From NCBI GenBank assembly GCA_016933535.1, contig JAFGAS010000035.1, forward strand, positions 62,001-126,000: DNA of 64,000 nucleotides. The letters are read 5' to 3'. Position 1 is the stretch's first letter. Every line of letters starts with the position of its first letter. The translations under genes and the position numbers were made by a program. Positions 34,892 to 49,265 of the stretch are shown here, in pieces. The notes under the pieces were generated by a model that worked only from the letters and a program-made list of their open reading frames with translations, searched no databases and had not been told where the DNA came from. This stretch comes from Candidatus Zymogenaceae bacterium. Lineage in GTDB: Bacteria > Desulfobacterota > Zymogenia > Zymogenales > Zymogenaceae.

Positions 34892-35434
34892 TCATAAGAG
34901 ACTCGTGAGGGTGTCGTCCCATCCGAACGCCAGATCATGGACCCGCTTGTTTCCGATCATGGCCTGCCGCCGTCCAACGATCCGCCCGCCCAGACGCGGG
35001 TAAAAGGAATTGGACGCGTATCCGTCAAACGTCCACAACATCATAGACCTGACGCCCCGGGAGGCAAGGCCCCGCGCGGCCGCCCGGACAAGTTCGCGTC
35101 CCACGCCCGATGTGCGCGCGTCGGCGGCGACGTAAAGGTTATAGAGCTCCGCCGAATATTCCCCATCGAGGAGGGCCCCCTCATCGCGGTACGGCCCGCA
35201 GGTCGACAGGCCCACGACGCGTGGTGCGCAGTCTTCGGCGACAAAGGCCATTGTCTCGGGACCGCCGATAATATCTTCGTAGAAGCGTTGTTCATCGGTG
35301 ATAGATAGGGCGGCCAGGTAGTCGTCCGGGGCAAAGCCCCGATAGTCGCTGCGCCAGGTAGCTATGTGCACATGGGCCATGGCCGGGGCATCGGCAGGTC
35401 GGGCGGGTCTGATGCGGGGTTGGTTTTCGCTCAC
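34892..35434 (-). CDS. GNAT-family N-acetyltransferase
   Basis: 180 residues starting at GTG 35434, one base after the stop of the YmdB-like gene (TGAC-GTG). It has an N-terminal RIRPARPADAPAMAHVHIATWRSDYRG, and the acetyl-CoA-binding motif A AELYNLYVAADARTSGVGRELVRAA (R-x-x-G-x-G). MMLWTFDGYASNSFYPRLGGRIVG is the C-terminal strand/helix pair seen in aminoglycoside- or protein-acetylating members. The acceptor is unknown. Third gene of a tightly coupled trio with two phosphoesterase-fold genes. Confidence 0.85.
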   Translation of the reverse strand: MSENQPRIRPARPADAPAMAHVHIATWRSDYRGFAPDDYLAALSITDEQRFYEDIIGGPETMAFVAEDCAPRVVGLSTCGPYRDEGALLDGEYSAELYNLYVAADARTSGVGRELVRAAARGLASRGVRSMMLWTFDGYASNSFYPRLGGRIVGRRQAMIGNKRVHDLAFGWDDTLTSLL

Positions 35435-35435
35435 G

Positions 35436-36233
35436 TCAGGTCTCGATGATCTCGGAGATTCTCTTAATGGAAAGGGCCCAGCCCGTATCGGGGTCAACCT
35501 CGCAGAGCACGGCGTCGACGCGTGCGCGTCCCTCGGCGGTGCGCGGGAAACTCTTCATGGAGGTGGTGAACCTCTTGATCTCTCCGTCCTTCTCGAAACC
35601 GACAACGGAGTCATAGGCCCCGACCATTCCCACGTCGGTGATGGAGGCGGTTCCGGTCTTGCTGATTTGTTCGTCGGCGGTCTGGACGTGTGTTCCGGTT
35701 CCAACCAGAAGGCTGATCATTCCGTCAAGGTGATATCTCATTGCCGCCTTTTCCGCGGTGGGAACGGCAAAAAAATCCATAACGGTCACCCGGGTCCTGG
35801 CGGAAACGTCCTTGACGATATCGTGGATGATGGGAAAGGGATTATCGGGGAGAATCCTTCCGATAAAGGTGTATCCCGAAATATTGATGATGCCGACGGG
35901 GACCCTGCCTATCCCGACCTCGGTGATCAAGGTGCCTCGTCCGGGGCTTGTCCCGGGAAGATTAAAGGGACGAAGGATATCCGGGCGTTTATCTAAGACG
36001 GATTCGATATCGGCCTGGCCCCAGACGTTTTGGCCGAGCGTAATAATATCCGCGCCCGCGCCCAGCAGCTCCCCGGCGGTATCTCCGGTAAGCCCCGAGC
36101 CCTCGGTAGCGTGGTCGCCATTGACGATAATAAGCTCGGGCCTGTTGTTTTCGGCCGTAAACTTGGAGATGAATCGCGCGGCGGCGCGCCTGCCGGTCTT
36201 GCCCATGATGACGCCGAGAAAGAGGATATTCAT
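35436..36233 (-). CDS. YmdB-family (TIGR00282) metallophosphoesterase homologue, metal site degraded
   Basis: 265 residues, the usual YmdB length and full-length alignable by eye: NILFLGVIMGKTGR, LIIVNGDHATEGSG, ADIITLGQNVW, RPFNLPGTSPGRG, LDGMISLLVGTGTHVQTADEQI, ASITDVGMVGAYDSVVGF. In B. subtilis YmdB the corresponding motifs are GDVVG, NGENAA, TMGNHTWD, DFHAEATSEK and GTHTHVQTAD. Here the metal-binding Asp8 is Val, Glu39 is Asp, Asn-His is Gln-Asn, the His of DFHAE is Phe (MDFFAV), and the first His of GTHTH is Gly. It therefore probably lacks the di-iron/manganese phosphodiesterase activity. ATGA overlap with the upstream active phosphoesterase. Confidence 0.85.
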   Translation of the reverse strand: MNILFLGVIMGKTGRRAAARFISKFTAENNRPELIIVNGDHATEGSGLTGDTAGELLGAGADIITLGQNVWGQADIESVLDKRPDILRPFNLPGTSPGRGTLITEVGIGRVPVGIINISGYTFIGRILPDNPFPIIHDIVKDVSARTRVTVMDFFAVPTAEKAAMRYHLDGMISLLVGTGTHVQTADEQISKTGTASITDVGMVGAYDSVVGFEKDGEIKRFTTSMKSFPRTAEGRARVDAVLCEVDPDTGWALSIKRISEIIET

Positions 36234-37039
36234 AGTCGTTGTTCCTGCAATTGCATCGTAGATACGACAACGCGCGTTACCGTCCTGGTTTTTTTGAAAA
36301 AACCGAGATTGACGGCCGTTGTAGCGCCGATCCTCATGCTCTTTTGTTTCGGGTTGTGAACGTGGCCGAAAAAGGCGTAAGTGGGCCGATAATGGTCAAT
36401 GTAGTCCAGCAGGGCGTCGCTGGACGGCTCCTGGCGCTTTGCGATCACGTCATAGGTCAGTTCGGGGACCTTCGGCGGTATATGCGTGACGATAATATCG
36501 ACGGGTCCCAGGGAGAATATCCGTTGACGGAAGGTGTCGGCGGGGATCTCTCCGGCAAGGCCAATGGTGTGGTCCCCCTCGGGCATCCCGGAAACAAGGC
36601 CGATCGAAAGTCCTCCCGCCCTGACGATCCCCGACTCGACGATCCGGGCCTTTCCGTCGAGCTTCGCCTTCAGGATTTGAGGATAGTCATCGTTGCCGAA
36701 AAGGATATAGGTATTACCCGAGAGGCCGCGCGAAAGGCGCTCATAGCTGTCCTCGATAAGGGGGCGGACCCGCTCATAGCGGTGATGTCCCGGTGTCGAT
36801 ATTTCGCGTATACCCTCACGGACCCGGTCGAGATTTCCCCGGGCATACTCCTTGAGGCCCTCGGCCAACTCCTCCGGGGTAAACGCGTGATAGAGGATGC
36901 CCTTGGTGATATCGGTAAAATCCATGAAGTTGAGGAGATCCCCGGCAATGAAGAGAGTATCGTCGCCGGAAACGAGGTCCCGGAGGGCGTCGAACTCCCC
37001 GTGTATATCGCCCGCAAAGACGAGAGTTTGCGCGTTCAT
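36230..37039 (-). CDS. Calcineurin-like metallophosphoesterase
   Basis: 269 residues. All core motifs are present: LVFAGDIHGEFDAL (GDxHG), LFIAGDLLNF (GD), ILFGNDDYP (the GNxD/E motif), IIVTHIPPKVPE (H) and YAFFGHVHNP (GHxH). It should be a cytosolic di-metal phosphoesterase; the substrate is unknown. I place the start at ATG 37039 (MNAQTLVFAGD); the frame is open 84 codons further but that region overlaps the feoB end and lacks family similarity. Its stop overlaps the YmdB-like start by four bases (ATGA). Confidence 0.85.
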   Translation of the reverse strand: MNAQTLVFAGDIHGEFDALRDLVSGDDTLFIAGDLLNFMDFTDITKGILYHAFTPEELAEGLKEYARGNLDRVREGIREISTPGHHRYERVRPLIEDSYERLSRGLSGNTYILFGNDDYPQILKAKLDGKARIVESGIVRAGGLSIGLVSGMPEGDHTIGLAGEIPADTFRQRIFSLGPVDIIVTHIPPKVPELTYDVIAKRQEPSSDALLDYIDHYRPTYAFFGHVHNPKQKSMRIGATTAVNLGFFKKTRTVTRVVVSTMQLQEQRL

Positions 37040-37118: not shown

Positions 37119-39254
37119 TTACCCGAGACCGGCAAGGATACCGATCCGGTAGGCGATGAATGAAACGATCCACGCCAGCACAAGAGAATAGCCGACAGAA
37201 AACGACGCGATAGTGGGGGAGGTCTCCTTTTTGATAGCCGCGATTGTCGCCAGACAAGGGGTATAGAGAAGGACGAAGACCATGAAGGCATAAGCCGCCG
37301 CCGGCGTCCATCCGCCCCGAATCATCGCTTTCCCGATCGACTTTTCTTCGCCCACGCCGTACAGCACGCCGAAGGTGGAAACGACGATCTCTTTTGCGAC
37401 GAATCCGGAAAGGAGCGCCACCGACGCCTGCCACGGAAAGCCAAGGGGAACGAAGATCGGCTCAATCGAAAAACCAATTTTCTCAAGGTAGGTCATGGAA
37501 TTCGGCCGGACGTCCCCGTTGGAGACCGTCCCATCCGAAGGGGAGGGGGGAGCCGTGCTGGAGTCCCGGACGGTGATCGTCTCTACTGCCGTGGTCTTTG
37601 TGGGGGTGGGTGGGTTGCCCCGATCCGGGGCCGCGGGATAGGTGGAGAGAAACCAGATTACCACCGCCCCGAGGAGAATAACGGTCGTCATCTTTTTCAG
37701 GAACAGGGAACCTTGTTCCCACATATGTATCAGTGTCCCCCGAAGCGTCGGGAGGCGGTACGGCGGAAGCTCCATGACGAAGGGAGGATTGTCGCTTCGG
37801 AAGATCGTCTTTTTGAAGAGCCTGCCAATGACAAACGCCAGGGCGATCCCCAGGAGATATATGGAAAATATGACGTTTCCCGCATGGCGGGGGAAGAATG
37901 TTCCGGCAAGCAGGATATAGACGGGCAGCCGGGCGCTGCAGCTCACCAGGGGATTAATGAGTATGGTGATAATACGGTCCTGTTTCGATTTAAGGGTTCG
38001 GGTGGCCGCGATGGCCGGGACGTTGCACCCGAATCCCATGATCATCGGGATGAAAGACTTGCCGTGGAGGCCGAGCTTGTGCATGACCTTGTCCATGATA
38101 AAGGCGGCGCGGGCCATGTAGCCGGAGTCCTCGAAAATAGAAATGATGAAATAGAGGATGAAGATATTTGGAACGAAGACGGCCACCCCGCCGACACCGG
38201 GAACAATGCCGTCGGCCAGGAGGTTAGAGAAAACACCCGCGGGAAGGGCAGTACGGAGGAAATTGCCGAGCCAGTCGACGCCGAGAGCGATCAGGCGGGT
38301 GGGATAATGGCCGACGGTGAACGTGAGCTGAAACATCAGCCAGATAGAGAAGAAAAGTATCGGAAAACCGAGCAGACGATGGACGAGTATCGAGTCGATC
38401 CGCCTGGTTATATCGATCCGGGGCATCGTTTCCCGTCTTACCGATTCCCTGACGGCCCCTGCAACGAAACCGTAGCGCCGGTCAACGATGAGTCCCGATG
38501 GGTCGTCGTCAAAGAGGGATTCGGTTAGCTGCTTGGCGGCGGCCGCCAGATCAAGGGCCTCTGTGGCGGTGAAGGTACTTTCCCTGACTAGTGTCTGGAT
38601 CTCGGGGTCTTCCTCCAGGAGCTTGAGGGCGGTCCATCGCGAGGGATGTGTGGCGGAGAAGGCCGCGTCTTTTTCGAGCACGGATTGAATCGTTTCTAGC
38701 TGCTGTTCAATCTCCTTGACGTGACGAACCTCGATGTGCCGCCGGGACGGTTCGGTTTGGTGGGCGGTGTCCACCACGGCCTGGAGCAGATCGTCCAGTC
38801 CCTTGCCCGTCGTCCCTACCAGCGGGACAATCCGGGCGTTGAAAAGTTCCGAGAGGTGGTCTGTATCGATGATCAATCCGGCGTCGTGGGCGATATCCAT
38901 CATGGAGAAGGCAAGAACGAGTTTGGTGTCCAACTCGATCAGTTGGGTGGTGAGGTAAAGATTACGATCCAGGTTGGACGCGTCCACGACGTTTATGACG
39001 ACGTCCGGCTTCTGATTGAGGATGTAATTGCGGGCGATAATCTCTTCGATGGAATATGCCGTAAGGCTGTAGGTTCCCGGCAGGTCGATAAGGTGTATCG
39101 TATACCCTTTGAAGTTGACGGTGCCTTCCTTCTTATCGACGGTTACGCCGCCCCAATTGCCGACCTTTTGGCGGGAACCGGTCAAGCGATTGAAGATGGT
39201 GGTCTTACCCGCGTTTGGATTTCCCGCTAAGGCGACCGTTATTTCGTGTGCCAT
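37119..39254 (-). CDS. feoB: Ferrous iron transporter FeoB
   Basis: 711 residues. The N-terminal G domain has G1 GNPNAGKT, switch region NWGGVTVDKKEG, G3 DLPGTYSLTAYS and G4-like VVDASNLDRN. The guanine-dissociation-inhibitor region is at about 150-265. The membrane part has two Gate domains and the FeoB C region, including MIMGFGCNVPAIAATRTL and VALLSGFVAKEIVVSTFGVLYG. A Pro/Thr-rich loop (about 545-590, PPTPTKTTAVETITV) sits between late helices. It imports Fe2+ across the inner membrane. The start overlaps feoA by 16 bp; no feoC is seen. Confidence 0.97.
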   Translation of the reverse strand: MAHEITVALAGNPNAGKTTIFNRLTGSRQKVGNWGGVTVDKKEGTVNFKGYTIHLIDLPGTYSLTAYSIEEIIARNYILNQKPDVVINVVDASNLDRNLYLTTQLIELDTKLVLAFSMMDIAHDAGLIIDTDHLSELFNARIVPLVGTTGKGLDDLLQAVVDTAHQTEPSRRHIEVRHVKEIEQQLETIQSVLEKDAAFSATHPSRWTALKLLEEDPEIQTLVRESTFTATEALDLAAAAKQLTESLFDDDPSGLIVDRRYGFVAGAVRESVRRETMPRIDITRRIDSILVHRLLGFPILFFSIWLMFQLTFTVGHYPTRLIALGVDWLGNFLRTALPAGVFSNLLADGIVPGVGGVAVFVPNIFILYFIISIFEDSGYMARAAFIMDKVMHKLGLHGKSFIPMIMGFGCNVPAIAATRTLKSKQDRIITILINPLVSCSARLPVYILLAGTFFPRHAGNVIFSIYLLGIALAFVIGRLFKKTIFRSDNPPFVMELPPYRLPTLRGTLIHMWEQGSLFLKKMTTVILLGAVVIWFLSTYPAAPDRGNPPTPTKTTAVETITVRDSSTAPPSPSDGTVSNGDVRPNSMTYLEKIGFSIEPIFVPLGFPWQASVALLSGFVAKEIVVSTFGVLYGVGEEKSIGKAMIRGGWTPAAAYAFMVFVLLYTPCLATIAAIKKETSPTIASFSVGYSLVLAWIVSFIAYRIGILAGLG

Positions 39255-39538
39255 CCGCGCCTGCGTCTCCTTTGTCCCATCCGGCCGGTAAAGGCGGCTC
39301 CGTCACCTTCGGCGGAGGGCAATACCACGTCGACGAACGCCGCGTCCTCCCGACGGAGGCTCACATGATAATGCTTGATGACGAATTCCACCGGGTCTCT
39401 GAGGGGTGCATATCGCTGGACGAAGACCGTTTCTCCGGGGACGAAGCCCATCTCCATAAGCCTCCTCCTGAAAGGACCGGAGCCCCTGACCCGGACGATT
39501 TGCGCCGTCTGCCCCTCTTCAATATCTCTGAGCGTCAT
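39239..39538 (-). CDS. feoA: Ferrous iron transport protein FeoA
   Basis: 99 residues, an SH3-like FeoA domain: LRDIEEGQTAQIVRVRGSGPFRRRLMEMGFVPG is the signature, followed by APLRDPVEFVIKHYHVSLRREDAAFV. It ends in an unusual Arg-rich tail (RMGQRRRRRGWHTK), in the part that overlaps feoB. It is a cytosolic partner of FeoB. It is first in the operon, controlled by the promoter-operator at 39587-39633. Confidence 0.95.
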   Translation of the reverse strand: MTLRDIEEGQTAQIVRVRGSGPFRRRLMEMGFVPGETVFVQRYAPLRDPVEFVIKHYHVSLRREDAAFVDVVLPSAEGDGAAFTGRMGQRRRRRGWHTK

Positions 39539-39633: not shown

Positions 39634-39730
39634 GGTCATTTTACATCGGTCCGGACCATTTACGCCGTTACGCTCTACTTAACCACGGTCGTTCTTGACA
39701 ACACCCGATGGGTCGGCTACAATGAGCGTC

Positions 39731-40447
39731 ATGAAACGATTCATGTTCGTTGCCGATGATTTTGGTATTTCCAAGGAGGCAAACAGTGCGATTGAGCTGG
39801 CCCACCGGGCGGGCGTGGTCAAGCTCGTGTCTATTATGGTATCGGAACGTGCGGCCGGCGATGCGGTGGCGACGGCCCGGAAGAATCCGGACATGATTGT
39901 TGGCCTTCACCTTCAGGTCGACAATCTGATTGGAGTCGACCCCGCCGTTTGGGCGGGAGCGCGATGTCCGGATCTATTGAACCGCATCAAGAGGCCGGAA
40001 CTCGGTCAAGAGATTAGAAACGAATGCGAACGACAGATACAGACCTATCTCTCTCACGGCTTTACCCCGACTTTTCTTAACAGCCACTTCAGCGTCCACG
40101 CGATCCCGGCGCTTTTTGATATCTTCGTTGATCTTGCCGAAACGCACGGATTTGAATTTATGCGCTTCTCACGCAATGATGCGCTCCTGGACCATCCCGA
40201 TCTGATGATTTCCGACAAAGACCTTAAGAAGATGGCGGACAAATTGGCCGATCGGGGTATCGATCACGCCGATTGGTATAGACCGACGTTCTGCTATTTC
40301 TATCCGCCCGAGCTCTCCGCGGGAGTGACGGAGATCGCGTTTCATCCGGCATGGCAGGATTCCGAAATCGGTTATCTCGATCTGGCCAGGCTCCTCTCAT
40401 GGGGAAGTATCATGCAATCGGCGGGCGCCAAACCGGCCGTCATCTGA
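39731..40447 (+). CDS. ChbG/HpnK (YdjC) family carbohydrate deacetylase
   Basis: 238 residues. The metal motif ADDFG (residues 7-11) is at the N-terminus, followed by MIVGLHLQVD and NSHFSVHAIP, which supply the histidines of the catalytic site, and a C-terminal EIAFHPAW. The family removes N-acetyl groups from chitooligosaccharides or hopanoid-linked sugars. ATG 39731 gives the standard family start (MKRFMFVADDFG); ATG 39722 is also possible. Divergent from feoA; the zincin gene follows after 6 bp. Confidence 0.85.
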   Translation: MKRFMFVADDFGISKEANSAIELAHRAGVVKLVSIMVSERAAGDAVATARKNPDMIVGLHLQVDNLIGVDPAVWAGARCPDLLNRIKRPELGQEIRNECERQIQTYLSHGFTPTFLNSHFSVHAIPALFDIFVDLAETHGFEFMRFSRNDALLDHPDLMISDKDLKKMADKLADRGIDHADWYRPTFCYFYPPELSAGVTEIAFHPAWQDSEIGYLDLARLLSWGSIMQSAGAKPAVI

Positions 40448-40453
40448 GACCAA

Positions 40454-40825
40454 ATGAATACATCGACACGGATATTCGAAGATTATGTGAAACAGGCCCT
40501 CACGCTGCTTCCGGATGAGTTTCGGGAACGTATGGATAACATCGTTATCTCCGTGGAGCCGTATCCCACCCGGGAAGACCTTAGATCGGTGGGTGTGAGC
40601 AACAAACGGCACCTCCTCGGAATTTTCCGGGGTATTCCCTTTAATACGGTCAGCCCCTTCTATTCCGGCCCGGTAATGCCGTCGGAAATCGTCCTGTTTC
40701 AGAAGAACATCGAGGCCGTCGCCGAGACCCGGGAAGACCTTATCGATCAGATCCGCATTACGCTCCTGCACGAAATCGGTCACTATTTCGGTATGAGCGA
40801 AGAGGACCTCAAACACTTTCATTGA
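40454..40825 (+). CDS. Zincin-like metallopeptidase (PF06262-type)
   Basis: 123 residues. The C-terminal motif LLHEIGHYFGMSEEDL is the minimal zincin HExxHxxGxxEE typical of this short family. The N-terminal part (FEDYVKQALTLLPDEFRERMDNIVISVEPYP) and GIFRGIPFNTVSPFYSGPVMPSEIVLFQKNIE also fit the family. It is cytosolic, without a signal peptide. The physiological substrate is unknown; activity of the family is poorly established. Likely co-transcribed with the YdjC-type gene. Confidence 0.88.
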   Translation: MNTSTRIFEDYVKQALTLLPDEFRERMDNIVISVEPYPTREDLRSVGVSNKRHLLGIFRGIPFNTVSPFYSGPVMPSEIVLFQKNIEAVAETREDLIDQIRITLLHEIGHYFGMSEEDLKHFH

Positions 40826-42203: not shown

Positions 42204-42943
42204 CTAAAGAAGGCAGTACCGGCTATCGGGCTTTCCGATGTCCGGCATCTCGCTGTAGATCCTTCCGTCCAGCATCCGTCCTGATTTCTTCTTATTGGTT
42301 CCGCCCCACTGTTTGAAGAAGAAGGCAACACCTGCGCTTTCGCATTGATCCCGCACATCGATGACCCATTTTTTTTTCATGGGCCTGGCCTTTGGGCCCG
42401 ACTCCCCGCCGACGACGACCCAGTCGATACCGGTGAGGTTAAGGGAAGGGATGGACGAAAGGAGCGGTTCCAGGGAAAGGAATCGTACGGAAGCACCGGT
42501 CTTTCTCAGTTCGTCGATTCGGAAGGTGTAGTCGGTGTGCTCTACGGTAACTCCCGTCCAGACGTTTTTGGGCCAGGGCAAAGTTTGGCTCAGTTCAGCA
42601 AGACGAGTCGATCGCTTCGTGGGAGTTGAAAGACATGATGGTCAGCTCGAGCCATAACGGAAAAGACTCTTTGAATGAAATCAAGAGGAATCTCATCGTG
42701 AAAAAGATCACCCATCGAATTGACGAAGATCATGCGCGGTTTCTTCCACGAGAGGGGAAGACAGAGGGTGTCGGGATGGGTCGTGGGGGCAAAGCCGTTT
42801 CGGTACTTCGGTTGCCCCATCTCTTTGAGGCGAAGCGCCATCCGTTCGGCGTAGCAGTGGGCGCAGCCGAGGCTCGTTTTCGTACAGCCGGTGACGGGGT
42901 TCCAGCTTGATGATGTCCATTCGATTTTTGAGTTATGGGACAA
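42204..42943 (-). pseudogene. DUF5131 (phage Gp37/Gp68-like) family gene, single-base frameshift
   Basis: The 5' part encodes [16 protein letters not shown] and the Cys cluster [18 protein letters not shown], then [18 protein letters not shown] and ADHHVFQL. The frame then breaks. In the next frame [21 protein letters not shown] and GVTVEHTDYTFRIDELR ... SLEPLLSSIPSLNLTGIDWVVVGGESG continue the protein to 42204. Restoring one base near 42635 would make about 245 residues, the normal length. The family has radical-SAM-like cysteines and is common in phages and mobile islands. The start is probably a TTG. Here it is broken in this sequence. Confidence 0.8.
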
Positions 42944-44171: not shown

Positions 44172-44930
44172 TTATGTATTTCCTTTCAACACCGAAACAA
44201 GGCGCTCGGGGTAGTTCGAGAGTATACCCGTAACTCCCAGGGCGTCCATTCGTTTCATCTGGTCTTCACCGTCCACCGTCCAGACGTTCACAAAAAAGCC
44301 CGCGGCCCGGGCGGCCGAAACGAGGTCCTCACGAACCCAGCTGTATTCGGGATGGAGGCCGTCGGCACCGGCCAGCCGCGCGGGGGTAATCGGGTCCATG
44401 AAGGCGCCCGAAAAAAGAATCCCGCACATGATATCGGGCGCGATCTCTTTTGTCCGCTTGACGGCCGCATGGTCAAACGACGAGACAATAACCCGGTCGG
44501 CTGCGGAAAGATCGTTGAGAACGGTGACGACTTTTTCTTCTATCCCTTCGTATATCCGGGGGCCGTTCTTTATCTCGATATTGAGGGCGACATCACGCTC
44601 TTTGGCCAAATCGAGAAGTTCCTCCAGCGTCATGATTTCCTCACCCGAAAAGGCCGGCCCCATCCACGAGCCGAAATCGAGCCGCCGGATCTCGGCAAGT
44701 GTGTATGAAAAAACTTCCCCCTTTCCGTTGCTGGTGAAGTCGACAATCTGGTCATGAATGATGACGAGATGCCCGTCCTTGGTCATGTTTATGTCGGTCT
44801 CGATCATATCGATATCATAATCGAGGGCCGAAAGAAAAGACGACCGTGTGTTCTGAGGCTTGGCCATTGGGTCGCCCCGGTGAGCTACGGCAAGAGGTCG
44901 CCGTTTCAGGAGGTCTCGTATCATGATCAT
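44172..44930 (-). CDS. Glycerophosphodiester phosphodiesterase
   Basis: 252 residues with the GDPD TIM-barrel motifs AVAHRGD (catalytic His17), DMIETDINMTKDG (metal-binding Glu and Asp), LVIIHDQ (second catalytic His), LNIEIKNG and VNVWTVD. It splits glycerophosphodiesters into sn-glycerol-3-phosphate and an alcohol. There is no signal peptide, so the cytosolic UgpQ type is likely. Starts 7 bp after the ccsB stop and ends the operon. Confidence 0.92.
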   Translation of the reverse strand: MIMIRDLLKRRPLAVAHRGDPMAKPQNTRSSFLSALDYDIDMIETDINMTKDGHLVIIHDQIVDFTSNGKGEVFSYTLAEIRRLDFGSWMGPAFSGEEIMTLEELLDLAKERDVALNIEIKNGPRIYEGIEEKVVTVLNDLSAADRVIVSSFDHAAVKRTKEIAPDIMCGILFSGAFMDPITPARLAGADGLHPEYSWVREDLVSAARAAGFFVNVWTVDGEDQMKRMDALGVTGILSNYPERLVSVLKGNT

Positions 44931-44937
44931 TACCCCG

Positions 44938-45756
44938 CTAAAGGTAAGAATGGAGTCCCGACAAGACGAAATTTACTCCCAAGAAGGTAAAGGCGACACA
45001 GAAAAAGCCGACGATGGAAAGGACGGCGCTCCTGGTTCCCCTCCATCCCCGGATAAGACGGGCATGGAGAAACAATGCGTAGACAATCCAGGTAATCAGC
45101 GACCACGTCTCCTTGGGGTCCCACGACCAATAAGATCCCCAGGCAAAATGCGCCCAGAAGGCGCCGGTTATGATCCCGATGGTCAGAAGCGGCATCCCCG
45201 CCAGTATCCCCCGGTAGATCAGCTCGTCAAGCGTCTCGCGGTTCGGAAGAGAACCCCCCTTGCGCTTACCCTTGAAAAGGTAGATGACGGCCACAACAAA
45301 CGAGAAGGCGAACGAGGCGTAGGACAGAAAGCAGGTCATCACGTGCACGGTGAGCCAGTTGCTCTGCAGTGCGGGAATAAGGGGCCGAATGGATTGATCA
45401 ACGTCTGGCGACAGTGAGGCGTAGGCGAGGGTGAGCACGGAAAGGGGGATCATGAAAACGCCCAGGAAGGTGTACCTGAAGACGAACCGAAGCACAAGGT
45501 AGATAAACGTGATCACCAGTGAAAAGAAGATAAGGGACTCGTAGAAGTTCGTCAGCGGGATATGTCCGATGCCGATCCGATAGCTTTCTATCCATCTCAG
45601 GATTATGGCCGCAAGGTGGACGACAAAAGAAATACCGACGATAATCTCGCCAAGGGTTCTGGCCGTGTCTTTTTTCAGCATCCAGTTGAGGATGAAGCAG
45701 ATAAAGGCCGCGCCGTAGGAAAACGTAACCCAGCTCAGAATAACGGAACTCAGCAT
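44938..45756 (-). CDS. System II cytochrome c biogenesis protein CcsB/CcsA (ResC)
   Basis: 272 residues, eight membrane spans. The haem-handling WWD-type motif WGSYWSWDPKETWSLITW lies near residue 195-212. External histidines for haem (for example in LTVHVMTCFLSY and VVHLAAIILRW) are conserved. With ResB it exports haem and ligates it to apocytochromes outside the inner membrane. Overlaps the end of resB by 7 bp. Confidence 0.93.
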   Translation of the reverse strand: MLSSVILSWVTFSYGAAFICFILNWMLKKDTARTLGEIIVGISFVVHLAAIILRWIESYRIGIGHIPLTNFYESLIFFSLVITFIYLVLRFVFRYTFLGVFMIPLSVLTLAYASLSPDVDQSIRPLIPALQSNWLTVHVMTCFLSYASFAFSFVVAVIYLFKGKRKGGSLPNRETLDELIYRGILAGMPLLTIGIITGAFWAHFAWGSYWSWDPKETWSLITWIVYALFLHARLIRGWRGTRSAVLSIVGFFCVAFTFLGVNFVLSGLHSYL

Positions 45757-47066
45757 AGACTTTTCCTTATACCGTCAACAAGACGTTTAAACAGCGCATC
45801 GAAACCGACCTTGAGCTTTCCCGGCGCTCCCTGGACGATAATCTCGGTGGTTTTAGCGCCCGGGGAGACCCGCACGCTGAACCTGCCCATCGAGGAGGCA
45901 ATGGGAAACAAGAATCCGATGCAGATGAGGATAAACCCGGCAAAAACCAGCCCAAGCCCGGGCTCCTTGACGGCGGTAATTCCGGAGTAGGGAACTTCGT
46001 GGTAATTTTTAAGGACGAAGACAAGATCGCCGTCCCGTTCCCGGTCGAAATCCGGGTAGTTGACAAAGGACCAGAGGTCGTACTGTTCTTTTCCGTCGGT
46101 AACCAGCAGTTGAACCGCAGGGCCAAGATCCATAAATTCGGAAGAATTCCTGACGATGGTAAACGTCATATCCCTACCGGGCACCGTAATGGGGATAGAC
46201 CAGTAAGCATCCCCGGTAAAAATCGACTTCCCCTCGCGATTCAGTATTTCAATGGTGGCGTAGTCCATCTCCATGCCGAAGCTCGTCTGATAGAATCGGA
46301 CGCCGTTGTGTTTGGCAGGGTGATTGACGGTCAGGGATGAGTCGGTCCGATTTTCTCCGTCGATAATCGTTATATCACTTCGGTATTCCCGGGGAGTTCC
46401 GTCCGCGTAGCGGTCAAAGGTGAATCGGTTGAGCTCGACGGAAAAATCGAGCATCACTAGATGTTTCCGGTCTATAACGACCTCACGGGAAATGCCGCCC
46501 TCGATGATAACCATGTCTCCCGAAAAACCGAAGAGCGATGATATCAACCCGCCGATGATGATAATGAGGATGCTGATATGGACGATGATCGCCCCGAGAG
46601 AGAAGACCGGGTGCGGCGCGGAGACGACAACCGTCTCTGCCCCACGGCTCGTTACCGTTGTCCGGCACAGGGGGCGTCTCACGGACTTCACGACGCCGCC
46701 CAGCACCTCATCTTCCGCGCGGGAAGAGACCAAGGACTCCGAAAAGGGGTAGCCCGATTCTTTTGCCGGCTTTTTCCAGAGGGCCGTGATCCTCTTTGGG
46801 GCAAAAGAAAGGGTACACAGGGTGATGTTTACAACCAGCAGCATCAGCAGGGCATTAAAATAGACGCTGTGGTAGATATCGGTTACCGAAAGCAGCGAAA
46901 GGACTCTGTAGGCGGTATGTCCGAAACGCATAACATATTCTTCGGGCAGGCTGTTCTGGCCCACCAGGGTGCCGATAGCCGCGAGCACGGCGACAGCTAT
47001 CAGGATAACGGCGGTCAATCGAACCGACGAGAGGTAGTCAACGGTGTCCTTAATTATCTGATTCAT
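45750..47066 (-). CDS. resB: Cytochrome c biogenesis protein ResB
   Basis: 438 residues. Three N-terminal membrane spans (LTAVILIAVAVLAAIGTLVGQ, YFNALLMLLVVNITLCTLSFAP and VFSLGAIIVHISILIIIIGGLISSLFG) precede a large periplasmic beta domain (about 170-370). A last helix (EPGLGLVFAGFILICIGFLFPIAS) follows. This is the ResB layout; it forms the haem-delivery complex with CcsB. The start is 3 bp after the stop of the tetraheme cytochrome gene, which is a likely client. Confidence 0.92.
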   Translation of the reverse strand: MNQIIKDTVDYLSSVRLTAVILIAVAVLAAIGTLVGQNSLPEEYVMRFGHTAYRVLSLLSVTDIYHSVYFNALLMLLVVNITLCTLSFAPKRITALWKKPAKESGYPFSESLVSSRAEDEVLGGVVKSVRRPLCRTTVTSRGAETVVVSAPHPVFSLGAIIVHISILIIIIGGLISSLFGFSGDMVIIEGGISREVVIDRKHLVMLDFSVELNRFTFDRYADGTPREYRSDITIIDGENRTDSSLTVNHPAKHNGVRFYQTSFGMEMDYATIEILNREGKSIFTGDAYWSIPITVPGRDMTFTIVRNSSEFMDLGPAVQLLVTDGKEQYDLWSFVNYPDFDRERDGDLVFVLKNYHEVPYSGITAVKEPGLGLVFAGFILICIGFLFPIASSMGRFSVRVSPGAKTTEIIVQGAPGKLKVGFDALFKRLVDGIRKSLC

Positions 47067-47069
47067 TGA

Positions 47070-47501
47070 TTATCTTTCGGGCATATGGCAAAAGTCACAG
47101 GCAAGAGAGATGCGCTTGTCGCCGCGCTCGATCTCTGACTTGTGACAGCCAATGCAGAGTTTGTGGAAGGAAACGGTATCTGTCGGGGCATTGATATCCT
47201 CCACGGGCATGTGGCACGTCGAGCACTTCGGGGGGATCTGATCCCAGGCCGTCGTGTGGTGACAATCGGAACAACCCGGCTTATTTTCACCTGTGCTCCC
47301 GTGATCCTTATGAACGAAGGTAACAGAACCCGCCGTCCGGTTATATTCCGAAAGGCTGATCGGGTCCGGGACGGCGCCGGTCTCGGCGGCCCGTGAGAAG
47401 ATCAGACCCCAGGTCAGGATAGATAAGAAAATAACGGCAAGGATCAGGGTCGCGGGGCCGATGACGCCCTGTCTCTCATGGTGGTTCGTGCCGTGGTGCA
47501 T
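47070..47501 (-). CDS. Membrane-anchored tetraheme c-type cytochrome
   Basis: 143 residues. There is an N-terminal anchor (IGPATLILAVIFLSILTWGLIF). Four CxxCH haem sites follow in about 70 residues: CSDCH, CSTCH, CIGCH and CDFCH, with extra His (FVHKDH, SFHKLC) as distal ligands, a c7/class III-like arrangement. It would carry electrons on the outer face of the inner membrane. The start is set at ATG 47501, 2 bp after the purE stop; an in-frame GTG at 47507 would overlap that stop. It sits between purE and the resB-ccsB maturation genes. Confidence 0.9.
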   Translation of the reverse strand: MHHGTNHHERQGVIGPATLILAVIFLSILTWGLIFSRAAETGAVPDPISLSEYNRTAGSVTFVHKDHGSTGENKPGCSDCHHTTAWDQIPPKCSTCHMPVEDINAPTDTVSFHKLCIGCHKSEIERGDKRISLACDFCHMPER

Positions 47502-47503
47502 AT

Positions 47504-48001
47504 TCACGTCTTTGAGATTTCCCGATCGGCTTTTTTTACTTCCTCGACCATCTCGGCCCGAAAGGCGGCCAGACGTTCGGAAAGCCCCTGGTCTGAAAGG
47601 GCAAGGATTTGCGCGGCGAGGATGGCCGCATTTTTTGCCCCCGGCTGGCCGATACCCACCGCGGCCACCGGTATTCCGGGGGGCATCTGAACGGTGGAAA
47701 GCAGGGCGTCGATACCCAGGAGGCTTGAAGAAGGGATGGGAACGCCGATGACCGGAAGCATGGTATGGGAGGCGATGACGCCGGCAAGGTGGGCCGCAAA
47801 GCCCGCCCCGGCGATGATGACGCCGATTCCACGATCGGACGCCGTTTGGGCCAGCTCACGGACGACCTCGGGCGTACGGTGGGCCGAGGCTATACGAAGC
47901 TCTGTCTCGATGCCGAAGCCTTCGAGGCGGTCCCGTGCGGGCTTCATTACCTCGATGTCGGATTTACTCCCCATAACGATGAGCACCTTATGTCTGGTCA
48001 T
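47504..48001 (-). CDS. purE: N5-carboxyaminoimidazole ribonucleotide mutase
   Basis: 165 residues. VLIVMGSKSDIEVMKPA (phosphate/substrate loop), RIASAHRTPEVV with the catalytic His, IIAGAGFAAHLAGVIASHTMLPVIGVPI and PVAAVGIGQPGAKNAAILAAQIL are all PurE signatures; the class I (mutase) type fits. It makes CAIR in the sixth step of purine synthesis. No purK is in the window. Overlaps purD by 14 bp. Confidence 0.97.
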   Translation of the reverse strand: MTRHKVLIVMGSKSDIEVMKPARDRLEGFGIETELRIASAHRTPEVVRELAQTASDRGIGVIIAGAGFAAHLAGVIASHTMLPVIGVPIPSSSLLGIDALLSTVQMPPGIPVAAVGIGQPGAKNAAILAAQILALSDQGLSERLAAFRAEMVEEVKKADREISKT

Positions 48002-49265
48002 AGCGCAGCCCCTTTGCTCCGATATCTTTTCGGTAGTACGCCCCCTCCCACGCGATCCGGTCGACGGCGGTATACGCCCGGTCGATGGCCGCCGTTAGGT
48101 CGCGACCTACTGCGGTTACACCGAGAACGCGGCCGCCCGACGTAACGAGGCTGTCGCCCTCGCGTTTGGTTCCGGCGTGAAAAACCACCACGTCGGAGAG
48201 CTTCTCGGCATCCTGGATGCCCGTGATTACCTTCCCCTTTTCATAGGCGCCCGGATAGCCGCCGGAGGCCATTACCACGCAGACGGCGGGGCGCTCATCC
48301 CAGTCCAGGGTGACCTCGGAAAGCCTTCCCTCAACGGCCTTGGTCATGACCTCAGACAGGCTGCCTTTCATCCTTATTAGGAGCGGCTGGGCTTCGGGGT
48401 CGCCAAAACGGGCGTTGAACTCGAGGACCTTGGGGATGCCGTTCTTGATCATGAGCCCGGCATAGAGTATGCCAAGGTAGGGGTGTCCCTCCTGCTCCAT
48501 GGCGTTTACCGTAGGAATCATGATATCGTCCATGATACGGGAAAAGAGGGCGGCGGTAACCACCGGGGCGGGGGAATAGGCGCCCATCCCGCCGGTGTTC
48601 GGCCCCGTGTCGCCGTCATAGATTGCCTTGTGATCCTGGGATGTAGCCAGCGGGACGACATGTTTTCCGTCCGTGAAGGCCAGGAAGGACGCTTCCTCGC
48701 CGGTCAGAAATTCCTCTACGACGACCTTGTTGCCGGCGTCCCCAAACTCTCGGGCCACCATGATTCGGTCGACGGCGGTGAGCGCCTCCGGGACGGTTTG
48801 CGCAAGTATCACTCCCTTTCCGGCCGCCAGGCCGTCGGCCTTGACGACGAGTGGAGCACCTTTTTCTTCGATATAGGCAACGGCCGATTTTCGGTCGATA
48901 AATTCAGCGAATTCGGCGGATGGAATGTCGTATTTTCTCATGAGGTTCTTCGAGAACGACTTGGACCCCTCGATTTGGGCAGCCTGCCTTGTGGGACCGA
49001 AGACCGGCAGACGCTTCTGGACGAAAAGGTCAACGATGCCGAGAACAAGGGGCGCCTCAGGTCCGACGATGGTCAGGTCGATGTGTTCCTTTACGGCAAA
49101 TGAAGAGAGTGCCGGGACGTCTTCGGCGGAAATCGGCACGTTTGTGCCGAGATCAACCGTACCCCCGTTTCCGGGGGCGCAGTAGACTCGTACGCCTTTT
49201 TCGCTGGCCAGTTTCCACGTGAGGGCGTGTTCCCTTCCGCCTCCGCCGACGATGAGTATTTTCAT
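47988..49265 (-). CDS. purD: Phosphoribosylamine--glycine ligase (GAR synthetase)
   Basis: 425 residues. The N-terminal domain starts MKILIVGGGGREHALTWKLA. The ATP-grasp part has APLVVKADGLAAGKGVILA and FLTGEEASFLAF. GGMGAYSPAP and LEFNARFGDPEAQ are PurD signatures. It condenses phosphoribosylamine and glycine. It follows purH after 122 bp and is translationally coupled to purE. Confidence 0.98.
   Translation of the reverse strand: MKILIVGGGGREHALTWKLASEKGVRVYCAPGNGGTVDLGTNVPISAEDVPALSSFAVKEHIDLTIVGPEAPLVLGIVDLFVQKRLPVFGPTRQAAQIEGSKSFSKNLMRKYDIPSAEFAEFIDRKSAVAYIEEKGAPLVVKADGLAAGKGVILAQTVPEALTAVDRIMVAREFGDAGNKVVVEEFLTGEEASFLAFTDGKHVVPLATSQDHKAIYDGDTGPNTGGMGAYSPAPVVTAALFSRIMDDIMIPTVNAMEQEGHPYLGILYAGLMIKNGIPKVLEFNARFGDPEAQPLLIRMKGSLSEVMTKAVEGRLSEVTLDWDERPAVCVVMASGGYPGAYEKGKVITGIQDAEKLSDVVVFHAGTKREGDSLVTSGGRVLGVTAVGRDLTAAIDRAYTAVDRIAWEGAYYRKDIGAKGLRYDQT

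Follow-up and report, generated by a model that had tools for sequence, protein, structure and literature searches.

A YmdB paralogue with replaced metal-site residues, translationally coupled to an intact phosphoesterase in Zymogenia and a candidate non-catalytic subunit

A degenerate YmdB and its intact paralogue

The DNA that we analysed, a stretch of 64,000 nucleotides from a Candidatus Zymogenaceae bacterium (hereafter the window), encodes a YmdB homologue whose metal and catalytic site has been almost entirely replaced, and whose gene overlaps that of a second, intact metallophosphoesterase (MPE). We give roughly even odds (a probability of about 0.5) that this protein, here called pseudo-YmdB, is a duplicated YmdB-family pseudoenzyme that serves as a non-catalytic partner subunit of the MPE, a reading drawn from sequence comparison. 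An erased centre in a protein that otherwise preserves much of its family's features, constantly overlapping an intact MPE, suggests the recruitment of a dead enzyme into the role of partner subunit. The features of the pair and its neighbour are listed in Table 1; the coordinates, the reading frame and the ATGA overlap reported for the two genes in an earlier note on this DNA were all correct.

Table 1. Positions in the window of the gene pair, its overlap, the replaced site codons and the adjoining acetyltransferase gene. Residue series separated by slashes run over the four genomes, the window first.
Feature	Position	Strand	Remarks
GNAT acetyltransferase	34892..35434	-	PF00583, 38.2 bits (scanned with two extra leading codons); local neighbour only
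Pseudo-YmdB	35436..36233	-	265 aa; metal/catalytic site erased; identified by PF13277, TIGR00282 and site residues
ATGA overlap, partner stop/pseudo-YmdB start	36230..36233	-	4 of 4 genomes examined of the class
Partner MPE	36230..37039	-	269 aa; motifs DxH, GD, GN, H and GHxH intact; PF00149
Val8 codon (canonical Asp8)	36210..36212	-	Val in 4 of 4
Asp40-His41 codons (canonical Glu39-Asn40)	36111..36116	-	D/N/N/N and H/F/Y/H
Gln68-Asn69 codons (canonical Asn67-His68)	36027..36032	-	Q/E/E/E; N in 4 of 4
Phe155 codon (canonical His150)	35769..35771	-	F/F/F/Y
Gly180 codon (canonical His175)	35694..35696	-	Gly in 4 of 4
His182 codon (canonical His177)	35688..35690	-	H/L/L/L; only site residue retained in the window

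Homology to YmdB extends over the full length of the protein, as had been claimed before: the Pfam YmdB family PF13277 matched residues 4–259 with 250 bits, and a phmmer comparison with Bacillus subtilis YmdB (PDB 4b2o) gave 179 bits over residues 1–259. The frame ends with a TGA at 35436-35438 on the minus strand. Its score against TIGR00282 was 207.6 bits, below the curated cut-off of 254.15, and the same was true of all four pseudo-YmdBs in the genome search (203.7–224 bits). An AlphaFold model computed from a two-row alignment reached a pLDDT of 38 and was left unused.

For YmdB, an Fe(II) centre has been reported, and the environment of this site in the B. subtilis protein comprises Asp8, Glu39, Asn40, Asn67, His150, His175, His177, His68 and Asp71, of which His68 and Asp71 are termed catalytic (PMC10406935). 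Since Asp71 varies among otherwise intact YmdBs, we omitted it and scored a set of eight residues, namely the seven others of this environment and the catalytic His68. Indeed, among 118 distinct YmdB sequences, position 71 was Asp with the other eight residues intact in 68, and another residue or a gap in 46; in the window pseudo-YmdB its equivalent is Gly. Seven of the eight are replaced in the window (D8V, E39D, N40H, N67Q, H68N, H150F and H175G in B. subtilis numbering), leaving His177 as the sole survivor. The earlier note had listed changes at these positions, every one of which we confirmed, but it had missed N40H. The three orthologues, 49–54% identical to the window protein, retain none of the eight residues. 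Residues that might act as substitute ligands in the window are poorly shared as well: the equivalents of Asp40 and His182 are Asn and Leu, respectively, in all three orthologues, and His41 is common to only one of them. Pseudo-YmdB is presumably metal-free. At the replaced positions, the four proteins agree on the new residues (V, D/N, Q/E, N, F/Y, G) about as well as they agree elsewhere, with a mean conservation of 0.81 compared to 0.73 for the rest. We rejected a sequencing or frame error because the corresponding changes are present in three other genomes.

A second, intact ymdB, which the earlier note had suggested looking for, was found on another contig of the window genome (283 bits), flanked by a gene for RNase Y with an HD domain and a gene for a tyrosyl-type tRNA synthetase. 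According to Pfam, the intact copy stands in the same order in all four genomes examined of the class, each of which carries both ymdB copies, and searches at the level of the family and of the class returned the same four genomes, every one positive for both pseudo-YmdB and the partner. A 10,543-base stretch of JAUWME010000033.1, from Candidatus Zymogenus sp., which NCBI places in Candidatus Zymogenia, lies letter for letter within a contig of one of them. In a tree of 59 sequences, a long stem led to a single clade of the four pseudo-YmdBs (support 100/100). This clade and the four canonical copies from the same family made up one side of a branch with a support of only 57/22, in a bootstrap that had yet to converge; a duplication of ymdB within the Zymogenia lineage is therefore no more than likely. 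The description of pseudo-YmdB as a paralogue devoid of metal ligands therefore holds, given the intact copy in the same genome and a degenerate lineage that is a single clade under constraint. As the four genomes belong to one class, they count as a single evolutionary event.

Family-wide comparison and constraint

To place the site loss in the family, we read 147 distinct YmdB sequences, which represent part of the 235 genomes of the phylum with a YmdB match and which came from the loci of our searches, from 60 stretches taken from the matches listed and from 29 matches in 30 mostly low-scoring genomes. All eight site residues were present in 139 sequences. Four more were incomplete, ending at a contig edge or entering masked sequence, and kept every residue that they covered; the remaining four were the pseudo-YmdBs. 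Site loss was thus found in no other complete YmdB among the 147, nor was there recurrent loss elsewhere in the phylum within this set from part of the 235 matching genomes. Outside the class, three genomes had two YmdB matches. In one of them (G321; loci L100 and L101), both copies have the full set of site residues. The second match in G096 is a contig-end piece that spans five of the site residues and keeps them all. In G100, the second match is weak (18 bits), contains two stops and has none of the motifs. Because the same positions were lost in three orthologues and in no other complete YmdB that we read, chance or decay is an unlikely source of the loss.

We then considered the 53 columns that are conserved at ≥95% in 55 canonical YmdB sequences. 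In the four pseudo-YmdBs, 36 of these columns were kept in all, and the 17 that were not comprised 6 kept in some and 11 lost in all. Seven of the 11 were site residues, the others being the canonical Tyr92, Glu157, Ile211 and Pro227 (numbered as in the window protein). Loss in all four proteins thus affected 7 of 8 site columns compared to 4 of 45 others (Fisher's exact test, p = 1.6e-5, a value that ignores relatedness, as neither columns nor taxa are independent). Conversely, 14 positions were invariant in the pseudo-YmdBs and present in ≤5% of the 55 canonical sequences. All four also had a 2-column insertion relative to the canonical copies of the class.

Pairwise dN between the pseudo-YmdBs was 0.19–0.46, and dS was at least 1.47 or undefined by saturation; with dS near or beyond saturation, the dN/dS ratio was unusable. 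Identities for 18 pairs over three genes of the same four genomes ranged from 49 to 72% for pseudo-YmdB, from 51 to 71% for the partner and from 61 to 78% for canonical YmdB. Pseudo-YmdB hence diverges about as fast as its partner, and canonical YmdB is the better conserved of the two copies. Taken together, the single clade, the partner-like rate of divergence and the retention of 36 of the 53 columns argue that pseudo-YmdB is constrained for something other than the YmdB metal centre. With its catalytic residues lost in a constrained sequence frame, it has the hallmarks by which we define a pseudoenzyme, and it is predicted to be inactive.

The partner phosphoesterase and the shared locus

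Pfam assigns the partner to the calcineurin-like phosphoesterases (PF00149, 37.1 bits), whereas the NCBIfam families contained no match. It carries all of the motifs DxH, GD, GN, H and GHxH, which we take to be the metal-ligand motifs of class III metallophosphodiesterases, and its ligand positions D11, H13, D34, N116, H186, H226 and H228 are invariant in all four orthologues. In metallophosphoesterases, the motif at the Asn position is usually GNH. The partner has GNDD there, with an Asp after the Asn that is invariant in all four genomes, so its general acid may differ. A search of PDB structures with Foldseek, using an AlphaFold model from a two-row alignment (pLDDT 55), gave no match at E ≤1e-3. 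Among the best 16 matches were the phosphodiesterases Rv0805, 1s3l, GpdQ and LpxH, which share metallophosphoesterase motifs with the partner; however, the best E-value with this pLDDT 55 model was only 1.7e-3, and the partner differs from them in having no NCBIfam match. PADLOC matched the partner to PDC-S10 (E 6.2e-11) over residues 180–259 only, which we took as general phosphoesterase similarity.

Pseudo-YmdB had been described as coupled to an intact phosphoesterase, and relatives were expected to share this pairing. Both proved right: an ATGA overlap joins the degenerate ymdB to the same partner gene in all four genomes, and the seven partner ligand positions are unchanged. Across 395 sampled genomes of the phylum, a profile of the partner scored 496–510 bits in these four and ≤38 bits elsewhere, and a profile of pseudo-YmdB scored 479–497 bits in the four, the next best among the matches listed being ≤261 bits and starting with canonical copies. 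Hence, no close match to either protein was found outside the four among the 395 sampled phylum genomes (for pseudo-YmdB, among the matches listed). A strict peptide-pattern scan of genome contigs returned nothing for pseudo-YmdB and, for the partner, one locus on JAUWME010000033.1, which lies inside the contigs of one of the four genomes. Viral contigs yielded no match to profiles of pseudo-YmdB, the partner or canonical YmdB, and phages none to the partner. Plasmids searched with pseudo-YmdB gave 36 records, all at <60% identity (15 of the 36 were looked at).

Around the pair, a glycerophosphodiester phosphodiesterase (GDPD) gene is common to the wider locus in all four genomes. The GNAT gene does begin one base after the pseudo-YmdB TGA, with a GTG at 35432-35434, as the earlier note had pointed out, but this linkage has no counterpart in the three other loci, and we rejected the gene as part of a conserved unit. 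The iron transport genes feoAB (37119-39538, minus strand), directly upstream of the partner on the same strand, were rejected on the same grounds, as none of the three other loci has them. In three of the four genomes, genes for a YdjC-like protein and a Zincin_1 metallopeptidase stand side by side near the pair (39695-40825, plus strand, in the window); Pfam identified the YdjC-like gene and, for the window copy, the zincin. Further along, at 44172-49265 (minus strand), genes for GDPD, cytochrome c assembly (CcsA-type), a ResB-like protein, a small frame (47070-47507), PurE (AIR carboxylase) and PurD (GARS) follow in a row, all but the small frame assigned by Pfam. Counterparts of this block stand beside the pair in two other loci (L033 and L034), and counterparts of its GDPD and assembly genes in L032. 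Two adjacent frames at 42204-42943 (minus strand) match positions 125–243 and 1–108 of DUF5131, as if one gene had been split.

A possible role as partner subunit

Most likely, ymdB was duplicated before the four examined genomes of the class diverged. The canonical copy would have stayed with RNase Y, whereas in the second copy the di-iron centre would have gone in one block together with the catalytic His68, much of the conserved frame of the family being kept; this copy would have become translationally coupled to the intact MPE of the same genomes. What points to a non-catalytic subunit of the MPE is the block-wise loss of the metal centre, together with a frame largely retained, the coupling and a partner left intact. 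From this genetic coupling, we infer a physical complex with binding and regulation, most likely a hetero-oligomer in which the MPE would be the catalytic subunit and pseudo-YmdB would position, stabilise or gate it. That the demetallated pocket holds a nucleotide-like ligand is a guess, and gating is likewise.

The gene overlap could also reflect shared expression alone. In that case, the two proteins would share an operon and a pathway without binding each other, and pseudo-YmdB would act on its own as a sensor or binder of nucleotides or RNA ends via the old substrate pocket. The conservation of the site positions in their new state and of 36 of the 53 family columns would fit such a role, which we nevertheless consider rather unlikely, as a loose operon would require neither coupling in four of four genomes nor, among the genomes sampled, the confinement of both genes to the class. 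Decay of a duplicate heading for loss, which might explain why pseudo-YmdB is less conserved than the canonical copy, we reject as highly improbable: the frame is open and the ATGA overlap present in four genomes whose proteins have diverged by about 50% (the closest two share 72% identity), the same 36 columns are kept, and dN is low against a saturated dS.

Two further explanations are, in our view, both improbable. Pseudo-YmdB could enter mixed oligomers with intact YmdB and, as a dominant-negative subunit, tune YmdB and with it RNase Y; an intact YmdB is encoded beside the RNase Y gene in all four genomes, and pseudo-YmdB retains a large share of the frame conserved in the family, yet in the same genomes the pseudo-YmdB gene shows linkage to the other phosphoesterase and none to the RNase Y-ymdB locus. 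Alternatively, by analogy with the lasso-peptide epimerase MslH, a rebuilt pocket might perform metal-free or single-metal chemistry, for which the 14 positions specific to the pseudo-YmdBs could be cited. According to PMC10406935, MslH has a YmdB-like fold (16% identity to YmdB) with a rearranged metal site that serves a different reaction; however, it keeps one metal and several site residues, whereas three of the four pseudo-YmdB orthologues retain none of the eight.

Compared to known systems, pseudo-YmdB resembles the metallophosphodiesterases of TIGR00282 and PF13277 (4b2o; also 1t70, 2cv9 and 1t71) in its full-length homology and in 36 of the 53 columns. It differs from them in that 7 (window) or all 8 site residues are replaced, in that the window copy scores under the TIGR00282 cut-off, and in the linkage of its gene, which is with a different phosphoesterase and not with RNase Y. 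A phosphoesterase fold used without catalysis has been described for the B-subunits of eukaryotic replicative polymerases, converted to a scaffold (PMC4996933), and for the retromer assembly subunit VPS29 (from titles cited in PMC7539009). Both differ from pseudo-YmdB in belonging to other families and in being eukaryotic. To our knowledge, the partner of neither is a phosphoesterase. Among the papers listed by our searches of the open-licence literature, we noticed no inactive YmdB, and these searches found no papers on Zymogenus or Zymogenia.

The bacteria that carry the pair are a small group known from fragmentary genomes. Tentatively, their pair may represent a two-component phosphoesterase, so far only in Zymogenia, in which a metal-stripped YmdB would be the obligate, translationally coupled regulatory subunit of an MPE of another subfamily. 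What YmdB acts on at the molecular level has yet to be settled even in B. subtilis, where suppressors of a ymdB deletion all hit the expression or activity of SinR, revealing no nucleotide (PMC6123443). A natural YmdB that lacks the catalytic centre and largely keeps its frame could separate binding from cutting by this fold. It also provides a bacterial test case for the idea that a metallophosphoesterase, once dead, can turn into the partner subunit of one that is live; if our reading is true, Zymogenia would offer a bacterial example of two such metallophosphoesterases, one live and one dead, forming a pair.
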